From: Euzebya pacifica
GTDB lineage: Bacteria > Actinomycetota > Nitriliruptoria > Euzebyales > Euzebyaceae
Assembly: GCF_003344865.1 (NCBI RefSeq)
Contig: NZ_CP031166.1
Span: forward strand, 1 to 64,000
Reading direction: 5' to 3'
Length of the DNA: 64,000 bases
This document shows, one piece after another, positions 17,905 to 27,397 of this stretch. The stretch's first letter is position 1; each line of letters begins with the position of its first letter. A program made the translations under genes and the position numbers. Below the pieces are notes generated by a model, which was not told where the DNA came from, did no database searches, and saw nothing but the letters and a program-made list of their open reading frames with translations.

Positions 17905-19071
17905 TCAGGCCGGCGGGCGGGCCGCTGCCACGTCACGCGCGACTTGGTCACACACCGCTGCCTGGCCGCCAAGGGGAACGATGGTGGCCGGGTCGAGACG
18001 AATCACCTCGTCGAGGACCTGGTCGGGTACCTGGCCGCACTGGGGGACGAGCAGGACGGGGCCGCCGGTCAGCGACGCCGCTGCGATGGAGTCGGCGAAC
18101 ACATCGGCGCGGGACAGGTAGACGACAGCGGCGCCGTTGGGGAACTGGTAGCGGCTGATCGCAATGGCTGTGTCGAACCGGGAGGGGCCTTCGAGCCGCT
18201 GGATCGGCCGGGACGTCATCGGCGGGACCGGTGTCGGCTGGCCAGTGGGTTCGGGGTCGGGCTGTGCAGGTGGAGTGCCGCCGGCCGGCTGCGGATCCCG
18301 GTCGACGCCCTTGCGGTCGGTCACGTACAACAGGCCCTCCTGATGGGGGGCGATGTCGGGGGACGCAAGGTCGGTGCCGTCGATCAGCACCACGCTCCAG
18401 GTCGTCTCGGGAGACCCGATCAGGGCGGCATCGAAGATCGTGGCGACCGAACTGCTCGAGGGACGGAACACCTCGACGATGTCGATCAGGTCGGTACTGG
18501 TGCACGAGGCGTTGGCGAACAACCCGGCGACCAGACCTGCACCCGGGTCGTGGAAGGCGTTGGTGTTGAACTCGAACCCGTTGCAGCCGGTGTTGGGGTT
18601 GTTGTCGGCGTCGATGAAGTGCATGAACGCCCCGAGGGAGGAGTCCGCCCAGGTGTCGTAGGTGAGGCCGATGCCGCCGAGGCTGAACACGCCGTTGCCC
18701 TCGTTGCAGTAGCCCGCCCCGCCGCCGCCGAGGTCGAGGGTGCCAACGTTGCCCGACGGGCCGTTGTTGTCATCACTGGTGGAGCAGGCCGCATCGACTT
18801 CTTCCGGCGTCTGTGTCGACCGGGCCCTGCTGTCGCTGTGCGCGGTGAACCGTCCGGCGGTCAGGGTCGACGCCGTCGTGGCACTACGGGCCTCCACCCG
18901 TGTGCGGACAACTGCCTGCTGCTCCGCAGAGGTGACGTTGTCCAGCGTGGGTGTGGCACGGCGGACAGCAGCCGCATCACCCTCGAGCAGCTGGGCGGAT
19001 GCCACCCCGCCGAGCAGCATCGTGGCCAGAACGACAAGGGCCACAACGGGCCCCCACGTGGTCTTCCTCAT
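17905..19071 (-). CDS. Secreted CWB2 protein with acidic N-terminal domain
   Basis: ATG 19071 after AAAGGGGAAA. Signal peptide: basic MRKTTW, core VVALVVLATMLLGGV, cleavage after ASA near residue 26. Residues 90-260 form an unrecognised extracytoplasmic domain with four Cys and many Asp/Asn/Gly (FIDADNNPNTGCNGFEF), probably calcium- or sugar-binding. A Pro-rich linker (PPAQPDPEPTGQPTPVPP) leads to a C-terminal CWB2 region of about 100 residues: RLEGPSRFDTAIAISRYQFP, ADVFADSIAAASLTGGPVLL and IVPLGGQAAV. The domain order is opposite to that of the 9192 protein. Confidence 0.88.
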   Translation of the reverse strand: MRKTTWGPVVALVVLATMLLGGVASAQLLEGDAAAVRRATPTLDNVTSAEQQAVVRTRVEARSATTASTLTAGRFTAHSDSRARSTQTPEEVDAACSTSDDNNGPSGNVGTLDLGGGGAGYCNEGNGVFSLGGIGLTYDTWADSSLGAFMHFIDADNNPNTGCNGFEFNTNAFHDPGAGLVAGLFANASCTSTDLIDIVEVFRPSSSSVATIFDAALIGSPETTWSVVLIDGTDLASPDIAPHQEGLLYVTDRKGVDRDPQPAGGTPPAQPDPEPTGQPTPVPPMTSRPIQRLEGPSRFDTAIAISRYQFPNGAAVVYLSRADVFADSIAAASLTGGPVLLVPQCGQVPDQVLDEVIRLDPATIVPLGGQAAVCDQVARDVAAARPPA

Positions 19072-19225
19072 GGGTGTTTCCCCTTTCGTGGGACAGCGGA
19101 CCCAAATTGCCCGTCCCGACCGTCGAGACGGGCTGTCCACCCGCCAGTGATGGTCGACGAAGACCCGCCTGACCGTCACCGCAGCGGCCGCCAAAAGGGG
19201 GGCGTCGACACCACCTGATGCGGGG

Positions 19226-20188
19226 TCAGTCGGGGGAGTGGTTCACCCAGATGTGGGTCCGATGCCAGTCCAGGTAACGCGCCGCCGGGGCGGCCGCCTG
19301 GGAGGGGACGATCAGCCGGTCGGCCACGGTGAAGGCCTGACCGGCGGCGGGGTCGCTGGCCGCAGCCGCCGCAAGCCGACCGGCCCGCCGGATCCGCAGG
19401 TCCGCATCGATGGTCAGCAGTCCGGTGTCGAACCCGATGTCGTGGGTGGGGCAGGCCGCCACCCCGTTGGCCGGATCGAGCCGTTCCCGGCTGGTGGAGT
19501 CCCGCCACGGCTTCACATGGCTGGCGATGGTGAGCCGATGACCCGGCAACGCCGACCCGTCCAACCCACAGAACCCGCAGCGGTTGGCGAACCGGGCAAG
19601 GACCTGCCGGGCGTAGCGGGCTTGACCGACCCGCAGATCGGCGATCGCCTGACGGACCGTGCGGCCCTCGACCATTGCAGCTTCGCGTTCGAGGTCCTCC
19701 CCCGCGAGCTCGTCGAGCCCGACGAACAACGCCTGCCATCCGCCGTTGGCGTCAGCCAAGCCGAGGAAGTCCGGCAGCACCGTCTCGTCGACCCCCGCCA
19801 GGCGTGCGCCCGCCAGGGCAACCAGGTACAGCTCGGCAAACGGGAGGTCGCCGGTCCCGAGTGCGACGTACAGCTCCGCCTCGTGGCTGCCGGCATGCGC
19901 ACGGGTGCCACGCAAGTTGTGACACTTCATCGCCACCGACGACGACGTCCGCACCACCGCATCGGCGATCATCCGGATCACCTCGTGGTGACCGGACCGA
20001 TCCGACCCGCCCTGTGTCGAGGGGTCCACGAGGAACATCGCCGCATACGCCAGCAGCACCTCAACCGGCTCGTACAGGCCCTGGTTGCCCTTCGGCCTCG
20101 GGGGCTGGCGGCTGCGGATGCGCCGCCACTGGGCCGCCGCCCCATCCACCGTCAACGACTCCAACGCGTCGCGAGTCACCCCAGCCAT
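19226..20188 (-). CDS. HNH endonuclease domain protein
   Basis: 320 residues, ATG 20188. The C-terminal third has a textbook HNH nuclease: RFANRCGFCGLDGS (Cys-x-x-Cys), IASHVKPWRDSTSRERLDP, NGVAACPTHDIGFDTGLLTI, giving the catalytic His of SHVKPW, the Asn of NG and the closing C-x-x-H. Similar domains end many restriction-like proteins. Residues 60-200 form an unrelated helical domain (HHEVIRMIADAVVRTSSSVAMK, ELYVALGTGDLPFAELYLVA) that is often fused to this HNH type. Likely defence or repair nuclease; specificity unknown. Confidence 0.9.
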   Translation of the reverse strand: MAGVTRDALESLTVDGAAAQWRRIRSRQPPRPKGNQGLYEPVEVLLAYAAMFLVDPSTQGGSDRSGHHEVIRMIADAVVRTSSSVAMKCHNLRGTRAHAGSHEAELYVALGTGDLPFAELYLVALAGARLAGVDETVLPDFLGLADANGGWQALFVGLDELAGEDLEREAAMVEGRTVRQAIADLRVGQARYARQVLARFANRCGFCGLDGSALPGHRLTIASHVKPWRDSTSRERLDPANGVAACPTHDIGFDTGLLTIDADLRIRRAGRLAAAAASDPAAGQAFTVADRLIVPSQAAAPAARYLDWHRTHIWVNHSPD

Positions 20189-20255
20189 CAGCGGCAGTCT
20201 GCCAGAAGCCCACCAGGAGCTCCTGTGAGAGACGGACCTGCCGGGTGGGAGCCGC

Positions 20256-22796
20256 TCAGTCGCCGATGGCTGCTTCTGCGGTATCAGGAGCGGTGGCCGG
20301 CATCGTTTCGCCGTGGCTGAGGGCCTCAGTGATGAAGGTGTGGGCGTCGGCCGGCTTGCCGAGCCCGTAGCCCTGCAGCTTGTCGGCACCCAAGCGGGTG
20401 AGGAGGCGGGCGTCGCGCATGGACTCGACCCCTTCGGCGACGACCCGCATGTCGAGTGCATGGCCGAGGCCGATGAGTGCGTCAAGGACAGCCACGACCC
20501 GCGGGGATCCATGGGCACCGATGAGCATCTGCCGGTCGATCTTGAGCTCGTCGATGTCGAACCGGGCAAGGCGGCCGAGCGAGGAGTGCCCCTCGCCGAC
20601 GTCGTCGATGGCGATGCGGCAACCGAGCTCGTGAAGGGTCTGCAGGGTCTCAGCGGTCGCTTCGGGGTCGACCATCGCCGACTGCTCGGTGATCTCGATG
20701 GTCAGCCACGACGGGTCGATGTCGTGGGCTTCGCAGGCACCCGTGACGAGATCGGGAAGGGTGCCGGAGGCCAGGTCGACGGCGGTGACGTTGAGGTTGA
20801 CGTGCACGGCGGCGTCGTGTTCGTCGCGCCATCGGGCGATGTCGGCACAGACGGCTTGCAGCATGGCGCCCGTGAGGAAGGAATCGAGGCCCATTGAGAC
20901 GAGCTTGGGCAGCCAGGCACCGGGTGGAAGCGTGCCGTCGGTGGGGTGGTTCCAGCGGGCCAGGGCTTCGGCGCCGACCATGGCTGGTTCGGGCCCCGCA
21001 GACATGATCGGCTGGTACCACGGGACGATCTCGCCGTTGCCGAGAGCGTGGCGGAGCTGGTCGGCGAGGCGGAGGTCCTTGGCGGTGCCGAGCGGCATCT
21101 TGTCGGTGAAGGACCGGACAGGGCCCGTGCCGTGATCGAGTGCGGTTTCGGCGCGGACGAGGAGATCAGCGACGCCGATCTGGACGCCGCGGTCGGTGCG
21201 GGCGGCTGTCCCGACGACAATGGAGACGGGCAGGGGAAGGTCATCGACCCGGTAGGTGCCCGACAGGCTGCGGCCGAGCGTTTCGGCGCTGGGGCCGGTG
21301 TCGTCGATGCAGACGGCGAAGCAGTCGCGGGCGACGTGTCCCTGGGGTTGGCCGATGGCCAGCTCGGTGAGGTGCTGGCCGACCTGCCGGATGATGTCGT
21401 CCGCGGCGTAGGGCCCGAGGGCCTGCTCGATCTCGCGCAGGTCGGCGATCCGCAGGACGTGGACGGCGCGGGCGGTCGCGATGCCGTGGGTCTGGTCGAG
21501 GAACGCGGGACGGGATGGCAGCCCCGAGATGTTGTCGGCGGTCACCGCTTCGGTGTGGCGTGCCAGCTTGTCAGCGGTGATGGCCCAGCCGAGCATCGGC
21601 AGGGCCAGGCTCAGCACGGCCACCGGATGGTAGGCCGCGAGGATGCAGACAACGGTGGCGGGGGCAGCAGCAACGACGAGGGCCATCGGGTGCAGTGAGG
21701 GCCGCAGCAGCGTGGGCGACCACGGTTCGCCGGTAGCGAACCGGATGAGGTGGTGCACCACGACCGCGGTGACGTAGTCGATGAGGACCGATCCGACGGT
21801 GACGGCAGCCCACATGGCGGGGGTCGCCGGGTCGGTTCCTATGGTGGTCAGGATGACCACGGCGACGCCGACCGGTGCGAGGGTGTTGAGGGCAGCGTTG
21901 CAGACAGTCTTGAAGACGTGCAGTCGTGCGGGACCGCTGGTGGGGCCGGTGCCGATGGTCCGGTGGACGACCTCACCGATGATCATGGCGGCAAGGACCA
22001 TCGGGGGGCCGCCGGCGGGGGAGGTGACGGCGGCGAGGACGAAGAAGGCATTGGTCGGGCTCTGCCGGCGTGGGCCAGCGATGGATGCCACGTGGGCGGC
22101 CAGGCCGATGGTGGTCAGGGCACCCGCTGTGACGAGCGACCCGGTCGGCATGGTTGAGGTGACCATCAGCAGGGCCAAGGTGCCGGTGACGGTGAGGAGG
22201 CCGATGACGCCAATGGCGGTGGTGCCCGGCCGCGACGGCAGCCCGGTGACGGCAACGGCTGCACGGCGGAGACGGGAGCCGCCTTGGGAGGCGGGCTGGC
22301 CGGCCCTGCGGATCAGGAGGAACAGCCCAATGACGAGGGCAATGTCGCCGATGGAGAACACGTTGGACAGCGGCCAGCTGGCGGGGGTGGCGAAGATGTC
22401 GCCGAGCCACCACAGGGTGGCGTTTTCGGTGACGGCAGAGTTGGAGAATCCGGTCTCGGGGGAGAGCCCTGCCATGTTGGCGGCGGCGGCGGTCGCCGGC
22501 ATGACGCCGCCGTTGGCGGCGATGACGAGGCCGTTGCTCGCAACTCCCAGAGCGATGACCGGCAGTCCCGTGACGTGCCGGTTGGCCCACGCCCACGTCA
22601 GCGCTGCTGCGTAGGACAGCAAGTGCACGAACCGGGCCGGGGTGCCGATGAGCACCTCGATGGCGATCGCCTGGACGAGGAACACCATGATGATGAAGTG
22701 GCTGTGGCGGATCGGCAGGCTGGCGGACGCCGACAGGCGTCCGCCGGTGAGCAGTCCTGCGGAGATGGCCAGGGCAGTGGCGACGAGCAGAATCAT
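20256..22796 (-). CDS. Membrane protein with degenerate GGDEF and intact EAL domain
   Basis: 846 residues. The N-terminus (ILLVATALAISAGLLTGGRL) matches the DUF5317 type membrane domain, followed by more membrane helices (to residue about 400). In the GGDEF domain the signature is RDCFA (490-494), so diguanylate cyclase activity should be lost. The EAL domain keeps GAEALARW (EAL 610-612), N in NLNVTAVDL, E in EITEQS, DD in IAIDDVGEGHSSL, K in ELKIDRQM and E in VVAEGVES, so cyclic-di-GMP phosphodiesterase activity is plausible. ATG 22796 overlaps the stop of the 22793 gene (ATGA). Together they form a complementary pair. Confidence 0.9.
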   Translation of the reverse strand: MILLVATALAISAGLLTGGRLSASASLPIRHSHFIIMVFLVQAIAIEVLIGTPARFVHLLSYAAALTWAWANRHVTGLPVIALGVASNGLVIAANGGVMPATAAAANMAGLSPETGFSNSAVTENATLWWLGDIFATPASWPLSNVFSIGDIALVIGLFLLIRRAGQPASQGGSRLRRAAVAVTGLPSRPGTTAIGVIGLLTVTGTLALLMVTSTMPTGSLVTAGALTTIGLAAHVASIAGPRRQSPTNAFFVLAAVTSPAGGPPMVLAAMIIGEVVHRTIGTGPTSGPARLHVFKTVCNAALNTLAPVGVAVVILTTIGTDPATPAMWAAVTVGSVLIDYVTAVVVHHLIRFATGEPWSPTLLRPSLHPMALVVAAAPATVVCILAAYHPVAVLSLALPMLGWAITADKLARHTEAVTADNISGLPSRPAFLDQTHGIATARAVHVLRIADLREIEQALGPYAADDIIRQVGQHLTELAIGQPQGHVARDCFAVCIDDTGPSAETLGRSLSGTYRVDDLPLPVSIVVGTAARTDRGVQIGVADLLVRAETALDHGTGPVRSFTDKMPLGTAKDLRLADQLRHALGNGEIVPWYQPIMSAGPEPAMVGAEALARWNHPTDGTLPPGAWLPKLVSMGLDSFLTGAMLQAVCADIARWRDEHDAAVHVNLNVTAVDLASGTLPDLVTGACEAHDIDPSWLTIEITEQSAMVDPEATAETLQTLHELGCRIAIDDVGEGHSSLGRLARFDIDELKIDRQMLIGAHGSPRVVAVLDALIGLGHALDMRVVAEGVESMRDARLLTRLGADKLQGYGLGKPADAHTFITEALSHGETMPATAPDTAEAAIGD

Positions 22797-24820
22797 GGGA
22801 CGTGGATCTCCTTGACCGCGGCGGTTGCCGGGGGGGTCAACGGCTGGTCCAGGCTGAGGCGCCCGTCGAGCCATGCCAACGTTTCGGGGAAGGACAGGGG
22901 TTTGGCGAGGCCGAACCCTTGGGCGCGTTCGATGCCGGCGCCTGCGGCTGCGTGGAGGTGTTCGGCCGTTTCGACACCCTCGACGATGAGGGGCAGCCCG
23001 AGCTCACGGCCGAACGCTCCGAGGGTCCGCAGGACCGCACGGCCGTAGTTGCTGTGGGTGGCGTCGGTCAGCAATGACTGGTCGACCTTGAGGGCCGTCA
23101 GTTGCATGGTGCGGATGCGGACCATGACTGAGTCGTTGCCGAACCCGTCGAGTGCGACGCCGACACCCGCTTCGGTGAGCCGGGCGACGGTACGGCGGGC
23201 ATCGTCGGGTTGGAACCCGCTGCTGTCGGTGATTTCCAGGGTCAGCCACTTGCTGGGGAGCTGGTGGTCGTGCAGGGCGGCAAGGACGTCGTCGGCGAAG
23301 GTGGGGTCGGCGAGGTTGCGGATGGAGATGTTGACGTGCACGCCGACCCGGTGGCCTCGGTCGTGCATCTGTCTGGTCGCCTTGCAGGCGTTGCGGAGCA
23401 CCCAGCGGGTCAACGGGGTGAGCAGCGCCGACGCCTCGACCAGCGGGATGAGGACGTTGGGGGCGATGGGGCCGTCGTCGGGGTGGTCCCAGCGGAGGAG
23501 GGCTTCCACCGCCAGCACGGCCTGGGTGCGGACATCCAGGATCGGCTGGAAGTGCAGGGCGAGGTTGTCGTTGGCGATCGCGTCGGCAAGGTCACGCAAC
23601 CGGCGGGTGTCGGCTCCGAGTTCAGCCTCTTCGATGCGGTGACCGGTGCGCTTGGAGGCGTACATGGCGGCGTCTGCAGCCCGGAGCAGCGCCCCGACAC
23701 CCTCGTCTTCGGTTGTCACCTGGGCGTAGCCCATCGATGCTTCGACCTCGACGGTGACGTCGTTGACGATCAGTTGGACAGGGAAGGCATCCGCGAAGTG
23801 CTGCACCTGTGGTCGGGCGTCGGTGGTGGTGTCGGGCAGCAGCACGGCGAACTCGTCACCGCCGAGTCGTGCGACCGTGGCGCCGTGGGGCGCGCGAGCC
23901 TGCAACTGTTCGGCGACTCGTTGCAGGACGATGTCGCCCGTGGCGTGCCCGAGGGTGTCGTTGATCGGCTTGAACCCGTCGAGGTCGAGGACGACGACGG
24001 TGGGGCGCAGCCCATGCCTGATGCCACGGGCGAGTACCTGTTCGGCGTCGGCGGTGAACCGGTCGCGGTTGGCAAGGCCCGTGAGGGGATCATGGTGGGC
24101 ACGGTCCTCAGCAGCGGCGAGGTGGCGGCCGGACCGGATCACCGTGCCGGTGAGGACCATGGCGAAGGGGAGCAGCAGCGGGGAGACCGCTGCGGCTCCA
24201 ACGAGGACTGGGGCCTGCACCAGGAGCAGGCCATCGGTGCCGAACGCGAGGAGAAAGTCGCGTCGCATCGTTGTGACGGCACCATCACCGGTGGCCAGGC
24301 CAATGGCGATGTTAAGGGGAATGGCGGCAACGGCATACATGCTGAGCCCGGCGAGGACGATGCCGAGGACTTGTTCGGCGCTGACGTCGAGGCTGGCAAC
24401 GGCATGTTGCGCGTCGAAGGTCCGGAGCGCGGCGGCGGCAGCAGCAGTGGACAGTGCGGCGGTGGCGGCGTTGAACGCCACCTTGTGACGATCGATGCGA
24501 CGCGAGAGGTCACCGATGATCGATGCGGCGGCAACGATCGGGACGGCGGCCAACCCACTGAGGGACATGGTCAACGCGAAGGCGTAGGCCAGCGACACGG
24601 TGACGAAGCTGGCTTCGCGTCCCCGGATCCACCTGACCGGCTGGATCTCCGCGACGAGCAGCGCCCCCGCGAAGGTGCCGACGGCGATCCAGTTGGGACT
24701 CAGCGTCCCGTTGAGCAACTCGGCGCCGCCGATCCCCGTGGCGGCGACGCCGAGGAGGATGACGGCGGCGAGGTAGGCCCGGAGGCCAACGGAGTACGCA
24801 GGCGAGTTGCCTGCGGTCAT
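22793..24820 (-). CDS. Membrane protein with intact GGDEF and degenerate EAL domain
   Basis: 675 residues, ATG 24820. Residues 10-265 have about eight membrane helices (MASE-like). GGDEF is intact (RLGGDEFAVL, residues 320-324), so cyclic-di-GMP synthesis is plausible. The EAL domain keeps AVEALLRW (439-441), but the DDFGTG motif reads ALDGFGNDS: the second Asp needed for metal binding is lost, so hydrolysis is doubtful. Its stop overlaps the start of the next gene, whose cyclase is dead and EAL intact. A 29-residue peptide gene ends 13 bases upstream. Confidence 0.9.
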   Translation of the reverse strand: MTAGNSPAYSVGLRAYLAAVILLGVAATGIGGAELLNGTLSPNWIAVGTFAGALLVAEIQPVRWIRGREASFVTVSLAYAFALTMSLSGLAAVPIVAAASIIGDLSRRIDRHKVAFNAATAALSTAAAAAALRTFDAQHAVASLDVSAEQVLGIVLAGLSMYAVAAIPLNIAIGLATGDGAVTTMRRDFLLAFGTDGLLLVQAPVLVGAAAVSPLLLPFAMVLTGTVIRSGRHLAAAEDRAHHDPLTGLANRDRFTADAEQVLARGIRHGLRPTVVVLDLDGFKPINDTLGHATGDIVLQRVAEQLQARAPHGATVARLGGDEFAVLLPDTTTDARPQVQHFADAFPVQLIVNDVTVEVEASMGYAQVTTEDEGVGALLRAADAAMYASKRTGHRIEEAELGADTRRLRDLADAIANDNLALHFQPILDVRTQAVLAVEALLRWDHPDDGPIAPNVLIPLVEASALLTPLTRWVLRNACKATRQMHDRGHRVGVHVNISIRNLADPTFADDVLAALHDHQLPSKWLTLEITDSSGFQPDDARRTVARLTEAGVGVALDGFGNDSVMVRIRTMQLTALKVDQSLLTDATHSNYGRAVLRTLGAFGRELGLPLIVEGVETAEHLHAAAGAGIERAQGFGLAKPLSFPETLAWLDGRLSLDQPLTPPATAAVKEIHVP

Positions 24821-24833
24821 GTCCGCTGGTCGC

Positions 24834-24923
24834 CTAGCCCCACTTCTGCGGGGCACCGGTGGCAAGGATGACGGCCACCAAGGCGGCAAGGTTCATGAGG
24901 GCTTTGCGTGTACGGGGACTCAT
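24834..24923 (-). CDS. 29-residue peptide gene heading the GGDEF-EAL operon
   Basis: ATG 24923 is preceded by AGGAG with seven-base spacing, the best ribosome site in the area. The product begins with the basic MSPRTRKALM, has a hydrophobic core NLAALVAVILATGA and ends PQKWG. This is the layout of a small exported signal peptide or a single-pass membrane peptide. The TAG at 24834-24836 is followed 13 bases later by the start of the 24820 gene, so co-translation is likely. A short leader, a secreted signal sensed by the membrane partner, or a regulatory membrane peptide are all possible. Confidence 0.65.
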   Translation of the reverse strand: MSPRTRKALMNLAALVAVILATGAPQKWG

Positions 24924-25255
24924 CGGATTGCTCCTGATCGTGGGTGGACTGCTGCGACGGCAGACAGAGACCGCCACCGCCACCACACAACTATCGGCAC
25001 GTCCGGAGAGAAACCTTAGAACTAGTTGCGCTGCAACGTCTTCGTGGCCATCAGGGGCCATGCGGACCTACGCATCGGGCCGCCCGACCACCCTGACCGA
25101 ACGGCGGTCACCCGTCCGGAATCCTTCGCGGGGCCACCGGGGCGGTGGGGTCCACGACGTTGTCGTCGGCTCGTGTCACCCTAAAGGGGCACCCGGCAGA
25201 TGCCGAGGTACTAGTCACCCGTACGGCTTGCCCACGCCCCGAAGGCCCGTTTCCC
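24924..25255. other. Divergent control region of the cyclic-di-GMP block
   Basis: 332 bases between the minus-strand operon and the plus-strand 25256 gene, with lower GC than the surroundings (AACCTTAGAACTAGTTGCGC at 25011-25030). A small stem CGGC-AGAT-GCCG lies at 25195-25206 just before CTAGTCACCC. I could not fit this to the known cyclic-di-GMP riboswitch consensus. It should hold both promoters. Confidence 0.45.
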
Positions 25256-27397
25256 TTGTCCACGTCTGCTGCACGGCCAGACACCGATGGACGCAGCGAC
25301 GCTGCGGTCATCACGCCTGCAGCCGATGCGGACACGACCGCCAGCGACGCTGCGGCGGACGGCCCGGACCACGTGATGCGGTACGTCTGGGCAGTCGTCG
25401 CCATGGCAGTGATCGCAGCCGTGGGCGTTCTGGTCCACTCCTCGACGCATGGCCTTTGGGGCAGTGACGATTCCATCCTTGCGCTGGTGCTGGTCGGGGC
25501 CATGCTGTGGGTGGAGATTCAGCCGCTGGATCTGTTGAAGAGCCGCGACTCGAGTGTGCACACGCTGTCGGCCGCCTACATCGTGGCACTGCTGCTCGTC
25601 GTGCCCGGCTACACCGCGGCCCTGCTCGTTGCGGCAGCGTCCCTTGCTGCGGACCTGCTGAAGACCGACCCGATCAAGTCGGTGTTCAACGCCGCGATGC
25701 TGCTGCTCTCCTCGATTGCGGCGCTTGCCGTTTTTCGTGCAGTCGACGCCCAGATGCTTGGTGCAGGTGCCGACGCCGATCCGGTGCTGGTCGTCGGGCT
25801 CATCGGGGCGTCGTGGGTGTTCAACATCGTCAACGTCGTCCTGATGTCGGGGCTCCTGGCGATCCTCCAGGAAATGTCGTTCGTGGCGGTGTTCCGCCGT
25901 GACGTGTTCGAGACGTGGACCACCGACTGGATGCTGGTGCTGCTCGGCCCCGTCATGGTCGTCATCGGCCGCACCCAGCCGTTGCTGCTGCCCATGGCGA
26001 TGCTGCTCACCTGGGTGGTTCACCACTCTGCCAAGGTTGCCCTTGCCCGCGAACTCGACGCCATCCAGGACCCCCTGACGGGCCTGCTGAACCGACGGGC
26101 TTTCGACGAGCAGGCCGAAGCCATCATCGAGCGGGCCGGCCGGACCAGCGGCCGGGTGGCGCTGTACCTGATCGACCTCAACGACTTCAAGACCATCAAC
26201 GACACACTCGGCCACCAGATCGGCGACGAGGTCCTGGTCCAGATCGCCAAGCGACTCACCGACGCCACCCCGGAGGGCGGCCTGGTCGCCCGGCTCGGTG
26301 GCGACGAGTTCGCCGTGCTGCTGCCATCAGTCGCCGGGCTCGACGCCGCAGGAGACCAAGCCGGAGTATTGGCTGACGCCATGGCCGGTGACCTGCCCGT
26401 CACCGATCCGGCCGTGGAGACCGTCACCACAAGCGGATCGGTGGGCGTGGCCGTCACCGGACCGAACTGGCGGACCCTCGGTGAGGCCTTCCGAGCCGCC
26501 GACGCCGCCATGTACACCGCCAAGCGGTCCGCAGACCGATGGACCATGGCCGACCCCGACCTTGCCGACCCCACCCACCACCTCGAGTCGCTCCGGGAGG
26601 CCATCAACAGCCCGGAGATGTCGTTGGTGTACCAGCCGATGATCGACACCCGAACGGGACTGGTCATGGGGTTCGAGGCGCTAGCCCGCTGGGACAGCCC
26701 GTTGCATGGCCCCATCGCACCATCGGAGTTCGTCCGCGACATCGAAGCCGCCGGGTCGCTCGTCGGCCCCTTCACCCGCCGAGTCCTCCACGATGCCCTG
26801 TCGGCCCAACCCCAGCTCGAAGCCGAGAACTCCGGCCCCATCATCGTCCATGTCAACGTGTCGCGGCGCAGCCTCACCGACCCAGCGTTCGCCAGCATGG
26901 TCCTGCAAGCACTCACACAGCACAACGTCCCGGCTGACCGTCTCGCCATCGAGATCACCGAAACCGCCGCGATCAAGGAAACCGAGGCCAGCGTCCGCGT
27001 CCTGGGTGAACTCCGCCACCTCGGCGTCCGGATCGCGCTGGACGACTTCGGGACAGGCAACTCCTCCCTTGCGGTGCTGCAGCACCTGCCACTGACGAGC
27101 CTGAAGGTCGACCGACAGTTCGTCTCACGCATCAGCGATGCCAACGGCGAAGCGTTGCTGGCCACCGTCGTGGCCTTCGGACGGCTCCACCAGTTGACGG
27201 TGGTGGCCGAAGGCGTTGAGGACCGGGCGATCATCAGCACCCTCGAACGGCTCGGGTTCGACCAGGCACAAGGACACGGCATATGCCGGCCCCAGGACCT
27301 CAAGGCATCCGTGGCCTGGCTGTCCGGGCGCGCATCCATCGACCCAACCGGTGCCGTGACCGTCCACGAAATAGATGTCGACCAGCACAACAACTGA
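25256..27397 (+). CDS. Membrane GGDEF-EAL protein with both active sites intact
   Basis: 713 residues from a TTG at 25256 with GAAGG upstream. An in-frame GTG at 25145 is an alternative, but codons before 25256 are poor, and ATG 25376 is another. Residues 40-270 carry about seven membrane helices. GGDEF is intact (RLGGDEFAVL, 348-352), as is EAL (GFEALARW, 474-476), with N in HVNVSRRSL, E in EITETAA, DD in IALDDFGTGNSSL, K in LKVDRQF and E in VVAEGVED. It could both make and break cyclic-di-GMP. It is divergent from the coupled pair at 20256-24820. Confidence 0.9.
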   Translation: MSTSAARPDTDGRSDAAVITPAADADTTASDAAADGPDHVMRYVWAVVAMAVIAAVGVLVHSSTHGLWGSDDSILALVLVGAMLWVEIQPLDLLKSRDSSVHTLSAAYIVALLLVVPGYTAALLVAAASLAADLLKTDPIKSVFNAAMLLLSSIAALAVFRAVDAQMLGAGADADPVLVVGLIGASWVFNIVNVVLMSGLLAILQEMSFVAVFRRDVFETWTTDWMLVLLGPVMVVIGRTQPLLLPMAMLLTWVVHHSAKVALARELDAIQDPLTGLLNRRAFDEQAEAIIERAGRTSGRVALYLIDLNDFKTINDTLGHQIGDEVLVQIAKRLTDATPEGGLVARLGGDEFAVLLPSVAGLDAAGDQAGVLADAMAGDLPVTDPAVETVTTSGSVGVAVTGPNWRTLGEAFRAADAAMYTAKRSADRWTMADPDLADPTHHLESLREAINSPEMSLVYQPMIDTRTGLVMGFEALARWDSPLHGPIAPSEFVRDIEAAGSLVGPFTRRVLHDALSAQPQLEAENSGPIIVHVNVSRRSLTDPAFASMVLQALTQHNVPADRLAIEITETAAIKETEASVRVLGELRHLGVRIALDDFGTGNSSLAVLQHLPLTSLKVDRQFVSRISDANGEALLATVVAFGRLHQLTVVAEGVEDRAIISTLERLGFDQAQGHGICRPQDLKASVAWLSGRASIDPTGAVTVHEIDVDQHNN

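Follow-up and report, generated by a model that had tools for sequence, protein, structure and literature searches.

Peptide quorum sensing is known in the Agr, competence pheromone and Phr types. For most c-di-GMP enzymes of the membrane the input signal is not known, and dual GGDEF-EAL proteins that combine a degenerate GGDEF with an intact EAL are common. Membrane receptors with the S-component fold, the 5TMR sensors, carry GGDEF, EAL or kinase outputs, as described by Partipilo and Slotboom (2024, PMC11109136). In E. coli, direct contacts between cyclases and phosphodiesterases, also through degenerate GGDEF domains, are documented (PMC5635695). A literature search found no published account of the function of either MASE9 or DUF5317, and no description of a module of peptide, receptor and DUF5317 in the literature on DUF5317, MASE9, peptide pheromone-GGDEF systems and Thermotoga peptide signalling.

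The locus described here lies in the window (the whole 64-kb stretch analysed), which is the start of the second replicon of the organism (571,580 bases; the main contig has 5,799,875 bases). The reading proposed, at about an even chance, makes the locus a variant form of a peptide-controlled c-di-GMP module in which synthase and hydrolase are now separate proteins. Its features are collected in Table 1. As the initial annotation had stated, genes A and B overlap by ATGA, the ATG of B at 22796-22794 and the TGA of A at 22795-22793, and the divergent gene C keeps both its GGDEF and EAL sites. The start of gene C is uncertain (its reading frame opens at 25145), and no peptide ORF was found before it. 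Two further ORFs were identified on the minus strand: one at 17905-19194 with repeats that resemble the CWB2 cell-wall-binding kind, and one of uncertain start at 19226-20569, overlapping the end of B in another frame of the same strand and presumably containing an HNH-like stretch near its C-terminus.

Table 1. Features of the A/B locus, with positions in the window
Feature	Position	Strand	Description
Gene A	22793..24820	minus	675 aa; putative receptor and diguanylate cyclase with a MASE9-like membrane domain, a complete GGDEF and a damaged EAL
A membrane domain, residues 1-238	24107..24820	minus	ECF S-component fold (AlphaFold2 model), MASE9-like
A GGDEF	23639..24100	minus	catalytic residues present; PHGA, no RxxD I-site
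A EAL, degraded	22898..23596	minus	LDGFGN-DSV replaces DDFGTGYSS; TDS replaces TES
Gene B	20256..22796	minus	846 aa; putative phosphodiesterase with DUF5317, a second membrane region, a degenerate GGDEF and a complete EAL
B DUF5317 (PF17248)	22311..22715	minus	ten family-invariant residues all kept
B GGDEF relic (RDCFA)	21138..21539	minus	under Pfam cut-off
B EAL	20352..21062	minus	metal and catalytic residues present; loop 6 = IDDVGEGHSS
Gene C	25376..27397	plus	divergent; GGDEF and EAL sites intact; membrane domain of A's family
Short ORF, putative signal peptide precursor	24834..24923	minus	29 aa, MSPRTRKALMNLAALVAVILATGAPQKWG; AGGAG 5' of ATG

In gene A both GGDEF (130.8 bits) and EAL (191.9 bits) were identified by Pfam, in gene B DUF5317 (95.9 bits) and EAL (203 bits), and in gene C GGDEF and EAL. 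The GGDEF of B reached only 14.1 bits (E 0.042), under the Pfam cut-off of 23.8. All cyclase residues checked in A are present (LDLDGF, NDTLGH and GGDEF), and its I-site position lacks the RxxD of product inhibition. The EAL of A reads ALDGFG at codons 23138-23155, with the Gly at 23144-23146. These residues are as first reported, and the loss is even larger: in addition to the change of D to G, the loop-6 sequence GTGYSS is replaced by N-DSV, and TES by TDS. The combination of both Asp of DDFG with loop 6 that marks an active phosphodiesterase is therefore missing. DDFGTG provides, in a crystal structure of PA3825 (PMC5301497), two Asp that coordinate the metals M1 and M2, so that the second Asp lost in A would be the M2 ligand by alignment. 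In B the cyclase signature is absent, RDCFA standing at the GGDEF site, and 8 of 8 checked EAL residues are kept (Glu, Asn, Glu, Asp-Asp, Lys, Glu and Gln), which agrees with the earlier description.

The genome (6.4 Mb) holds a large c-di-GMP network, with 63 GGDEF and 49 EAL matches. Forty frames contain both domains: 28 with both intact, 11 with only GGDEF lost and a single one, gene A, with GGDEF kept and EAL lost. Same-strand pairs of dual-domain neighbours within 300 bases number four, and A/B is the only complementary one. Among 56 aligned family members, from relatives and from this genome, the DD motif is absent only in A. A quick tree groups A, C and the DUF5317-partnered genes of the genus, the placement of B being unsure. 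The closest match to B in its own genome (32%) is C2:209430-211499 (L093:3931-6000), a gene with a degenerate GGDEF (APDIL) and an intact EAL that stands alone, with no pair partner. Kinship of the two was considered and set aside: the quick tree joined them, on long branches flagged as unsafe by the program.

With A as query, the best matches were about 700 residues long; one is encoded on the chromosome of this genome (C1:4651061-4653001, 42%), others in members of the genus and order. With the first 414 residues of B as query, matches outside the window spanned only the DUF5317 part, roughly residues 1-200. Outside the window, 14 places have an A-like gene followed on its own strand by a stand-alone DUF5317 gene (L017, L018, L019, L020, L022, L085, L114, L115, L116, L118, L119, L120, L127 and G020:C94). 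L085 is the tandem of the own chromosome, and L020, at a contig start, has the EAL part only; in L017, L018 and L020 the two frames overlap by one base. Active sites could be read in 11 of the DUF5317-partnered relatives, and GGDEF and EAL are intact in all 11. Since relatives pair an A-like gene with a stand-alone DUF5317, the ATGA junction of the window would be the old junction between A and DUF5317, and B would be a DUF5317 joined to a second, GGDEF-dead enzyme. The conserved pairing that the initial annotation proposed to look for in relatives thus takes another form, A-like gene plus DUF5317, and no pair of two GGDEF-EAL genes is kept. Its proposal that a split synthase and hydrolase evolved from two bifunctional proteins holds in part: the split is well supported by the sequences, and descent from a bifunctional protein is supported for A by the 11 intact relatives, while B retains a weak GGDEF relic.

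The membrane domain of A was modelled by AlphaFold2 with a pLDDT of 89. The top 22 VIA-align rows are all S-components or CbiM/NikM kin, with Z from 14.0 to 7.5, followed by the first unrelated row at Z 6.0. The best alignment covers 189 residues with an rmsd of 3.6, and the model has the six helices of the S-component fold. Pfam MASE9 (PF20972, gathering score 24.3 bits) gave no match in A at E <=1; it matched 12 of 27 members of A's family at E <=0.1. When A was aligned with C and three relatives and this profile was compared with the MASE9 of HD-GYP and histidine-kinase proteins, the hhalign probability was 99.4% over 226 columns, and by this profile comparison the membrane domain of A is a MASE9 homologue. 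The middle membrane region of B was compared with MASE9 as a possible second domain of this kind, with a non-significant hmmsearch result and an hhalign probability of 30.4%.

DUF5317 occupies residues 28-162 of B, far above the gathering score of 25, and B keeps the ten residues invariant in 57 aligned members (N72, G84, N88, N95, P100, D133, S148, G150, D151 and G157). The AlphaFold2 model of the domain has a pLDDT of 90, and no fold match was found for it in the PDB. Nineteen long DUF5317 frames were searched with Pfam: MFS was identified in 11, the other 8 contained DUF5317 alone, and GGDEF, EAL or HD in none. A frame that places DUF5317 close to its C-terminus probably extends too far, the DNA being rich in GC. 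A fusion of DUF5317 with EAL was seen nowhere outside the window, so the window variant rests on one locus. Fusions of DUF5317 with MFS (MFS_1 or MFS_3) comprise L185:1973-3805, L186:1459-3240, L189:2839-4722, L190:3055-4905, L198:1436-3865, L202:3078-4877, L200:38-2290 and L201:2974-5229, the last ending in a response-regulator receiver domain.

The short ORF, whose stop lies 13 bases 5' of the start of A, belongs to a family of ORFs seen in the scan 5' of A-like genes, with a basic start, a hydrophobic core and a tail of approximately GAPxKW. MSPRTRKALMNLAALVAVILATGAPQKWG scores 41.1-41.3 bits against the family profile. No Pfam or NCBIfam match was obtained for 10 peptides tested, the two weak NCBIfam rows (E 0.067 and 0.1) being far under the cut-off. 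Codon differences in seven pairs of related peptides, pooled, were 47 silent and 32 residue-changing, with residue-changing codons outnumbering silent ones in three of the seven; the pair L215/L217 (1 silent, 0 changing) was left out of this count. Two or three peptide ORFs stand in tandem in L017:7220-7437, L018:7093-7323, L118:630-811, L041:2465-2646 and G212:C142:3117-4926, possibly as separate signals or as a repeat cassette. The gene directly after the peptide encodes a histidine kinase in L185, L186, L189 and L194; an HD-GYP protein in L209, L210, L211, L214, L218, L224 and L255; and a GGDEF-EAL protein in L193, L198, L215, L183 (which ends at a contig end) and the A-like group. These receptors mostly match MASE9, with the exception of L211 and L224. 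In L135, L136, L201 and L202 what comes after the peptide is a DUF5317 frame instead of a receptor, and in L188 no recognisable domain was found after it.

The peptides, about 25-34 aa long and made up mostly of one hydrophobic helix and a tail of few residues, could also be small resident membrane proteins that act on the MASE9 receptor or on DUF5317 through contacts between helices, with no secretion. Their build and the position of the ORFs directly before the receptor gene suit such a role. The most conserved part is, however, the tail, with invariant A and W, and not the helix, and the fusions of DUF5317 with MFS exporters in several lineages fit export; a resident protein is therefore considered rather unlikely.

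The association of the peptide with DUF5317 and MASE9 was observed at three scales. A strict scan for the tail motif in 255 loci (1.55 Mb), some of which repeat the same places (e.g. L022/L123, L161/L185, L175/L188 and L113/window), gave 31 rows, 30 of them in DUF5317 loci, against a mean of 0 rows in five shuffled sets. A profile of 24 peptides, from which the L075 match was left out as spurious by eye, was compared with 15,011 small ORFs, and all matches at E <0.2 lay in DUF5317 loci, some of them outside the profile set. In 66 genomes of the class a 25-row profile (A3) gave 29 matches at E <=0.001, 20 of them near DUF5317 by comparison of match lists. The loci of the other nine were fetched: two have DUF5317, four a MASE9-like receptor downstream or overlapping, two lie at contig ends and one is without an assigned neighbour. 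Three weaker matches (L264-L266) have neither DUF5317 nor MASE9 as neighbour.

Among 296 genomes of the phylum, DUF5317 was identified in 93, MASE9 in 96 and both in 57. The peptide was identified in 35, of which 34 also have DUF5317, compared with 93 of 296 overall. Of the 43 peptide matches (E <=0.001) in these genomes, 36 have DUF5317 no more than 5 kb away and 23 have MASE9 no more than 1.5 kb away; 41 are near one or the other and 2 near neither. DUF5317 loci supplied the profile, which leaves only the matches outside the training set as an independent test of linkage; without the 18 profile-row matches 23 of 25 are near DUF5317 or MASE9 by list comparison. DUF5317 lies within 5 kb of a Pfam-detected MASE9 in 47 of 134 matches; the two are thus often apart, or MASE9 is missed by Pfam as in A. 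Both domains are held by 2 of 14 control genomes, Thermotoga maritima and Thermus composti.

A and B might instead form an ordinary cognate couple of cyclase and phosphodiesterase for local control of c-di-GMP, with the peptide and DUF5317 incidental. A degenerate GGDEF with an active EAL is frequent in this genome (11 of the 40 dual frames), and the direct contact of such enzymes in E. coli (PMC5635695) is in keeping with a couple of this kind. Incidental partners would, however, be expected neither to be linked genome-wide, as peptide, DUF5317 and MASE9 are, nor to retain all the invariant residues of DUF5317, as B does, and this explanation is judged unlikely.

It is very unlikely that A acts mainly as a receptor-effector of the LapD/FimX kind, its damaged EAL binding c-di-GMP and B being the sole relevant enzyme. 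The EAL of A still holds Glu, Asn, the first Asp, Lys, Glu and Gln, and FimX, without the DDFGTG motif, is an inactive phosphodiesterase (PMC5301497); the GGDEF of A, however, has every catalytic residue checked, so that a loss of synthesis is not indicated. That the short ORF is a mere leader, translationally coupled to the receptor gene or attenuating it, as its short distance from A might suggest, is hardly credible, for its amino-acid pattern is kept in different genera and with receptors of three output types, and such ORFs also stand in front of DUF5317-MFS genes.

For the peptide-controlled module, we infer the enzyme activities, the secretion and sensing of the peptide, the role of DUF5317 and the contact between A and B as follows. 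The DUF5317 membrane protein would assist in making, processing or exporting the short peptide, and the peptide would be sensed by the MASE9-like membrane domain of S-component fold, which would control the c-di-GMP enzymes. In relatives the module would comprise one receptor with active GGDEF and EAL, DUF5317 being a separate small protein. In the window, receptor A would retain synthesis only, and hydrolysis would reside in B, where DUF5317 is joined with a further membrane region, a dead GGDEF and a presumably active EAL. The two proteins would be translated as a coupled pair and would probably work against each other as enzymes in physical contact, both answering to one peptide signal; their contact is plausible in view of the contacts documented in E. 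coli (PMC5635695).

The A/B pair is real and unusual, and the larger find is the association of peptide, receptor and DUF5317. The probability is put near one half that this association represents an undescribed peptide-signalling family, present in Actinomycetota and probably beyond, with a precursor of about 25-34 residues ending approximately in GAPxKW, DUF5317, alone or in fusion with an MFS exporter, as processor or exporter, and MASE9 receptors of S-component fold that would convert the peptide directly into c-di-GMP synthesis or breakdown or into phosphorylation. The window would then carry a form of it in which the receptor and the processing protein each took one of the opposing c-di-GMP activities. 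If the peptide is the input, MASE9 and DUF5317 gain a testable function, a peptide language directly connected to c-di-GMP is added to the Actinomycetota, and the A/B pair becomes a natural experiment, one bifunctional receptor having been split into two halves that oppose each other and share a signal.

In comparison with known systems, A and B resemble dual GGDEF-EAL proteins with one degenerate domain in that each keeps one site, and differ from them in that the losses are complementary within one overlapping gene pair. A shares with the S-component-fold receptors (PMC11109136) the membrane fold that serves as input to GGDEF, EAL or kinase outputs; unlike the 5TMR sensors, it has no reported PF07694 match, and its family is MASE9-like and linked to a peptide gene and DUF5317. 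With respect to MASE9 (PF20972), the domain of A is homologous by profile, A itself being without a Pfam match. With respect to DUF5317 (PF17248), the copy in B is fused to GGDEF-EAL, and elsewhere the domain is stand-alone or fused to MFS. Close to its last membrane helix DUF5317 has two conserved Asp with a spacing of about 18 residues, which by eye looks similar to that of the aspartyl peptidase LspA (PF01252); comparison with LspA gave an hhalign probability of 2.9% and no fold match, LspA being absent among the Foldseek rows. As in the Agr, competence and Phr systems, a short precursor gene has a membrane receptor and a putative processor or exporter as its neighbours; the difference is that the output of the module described here often goes straight to c-di-GMP enzymes.
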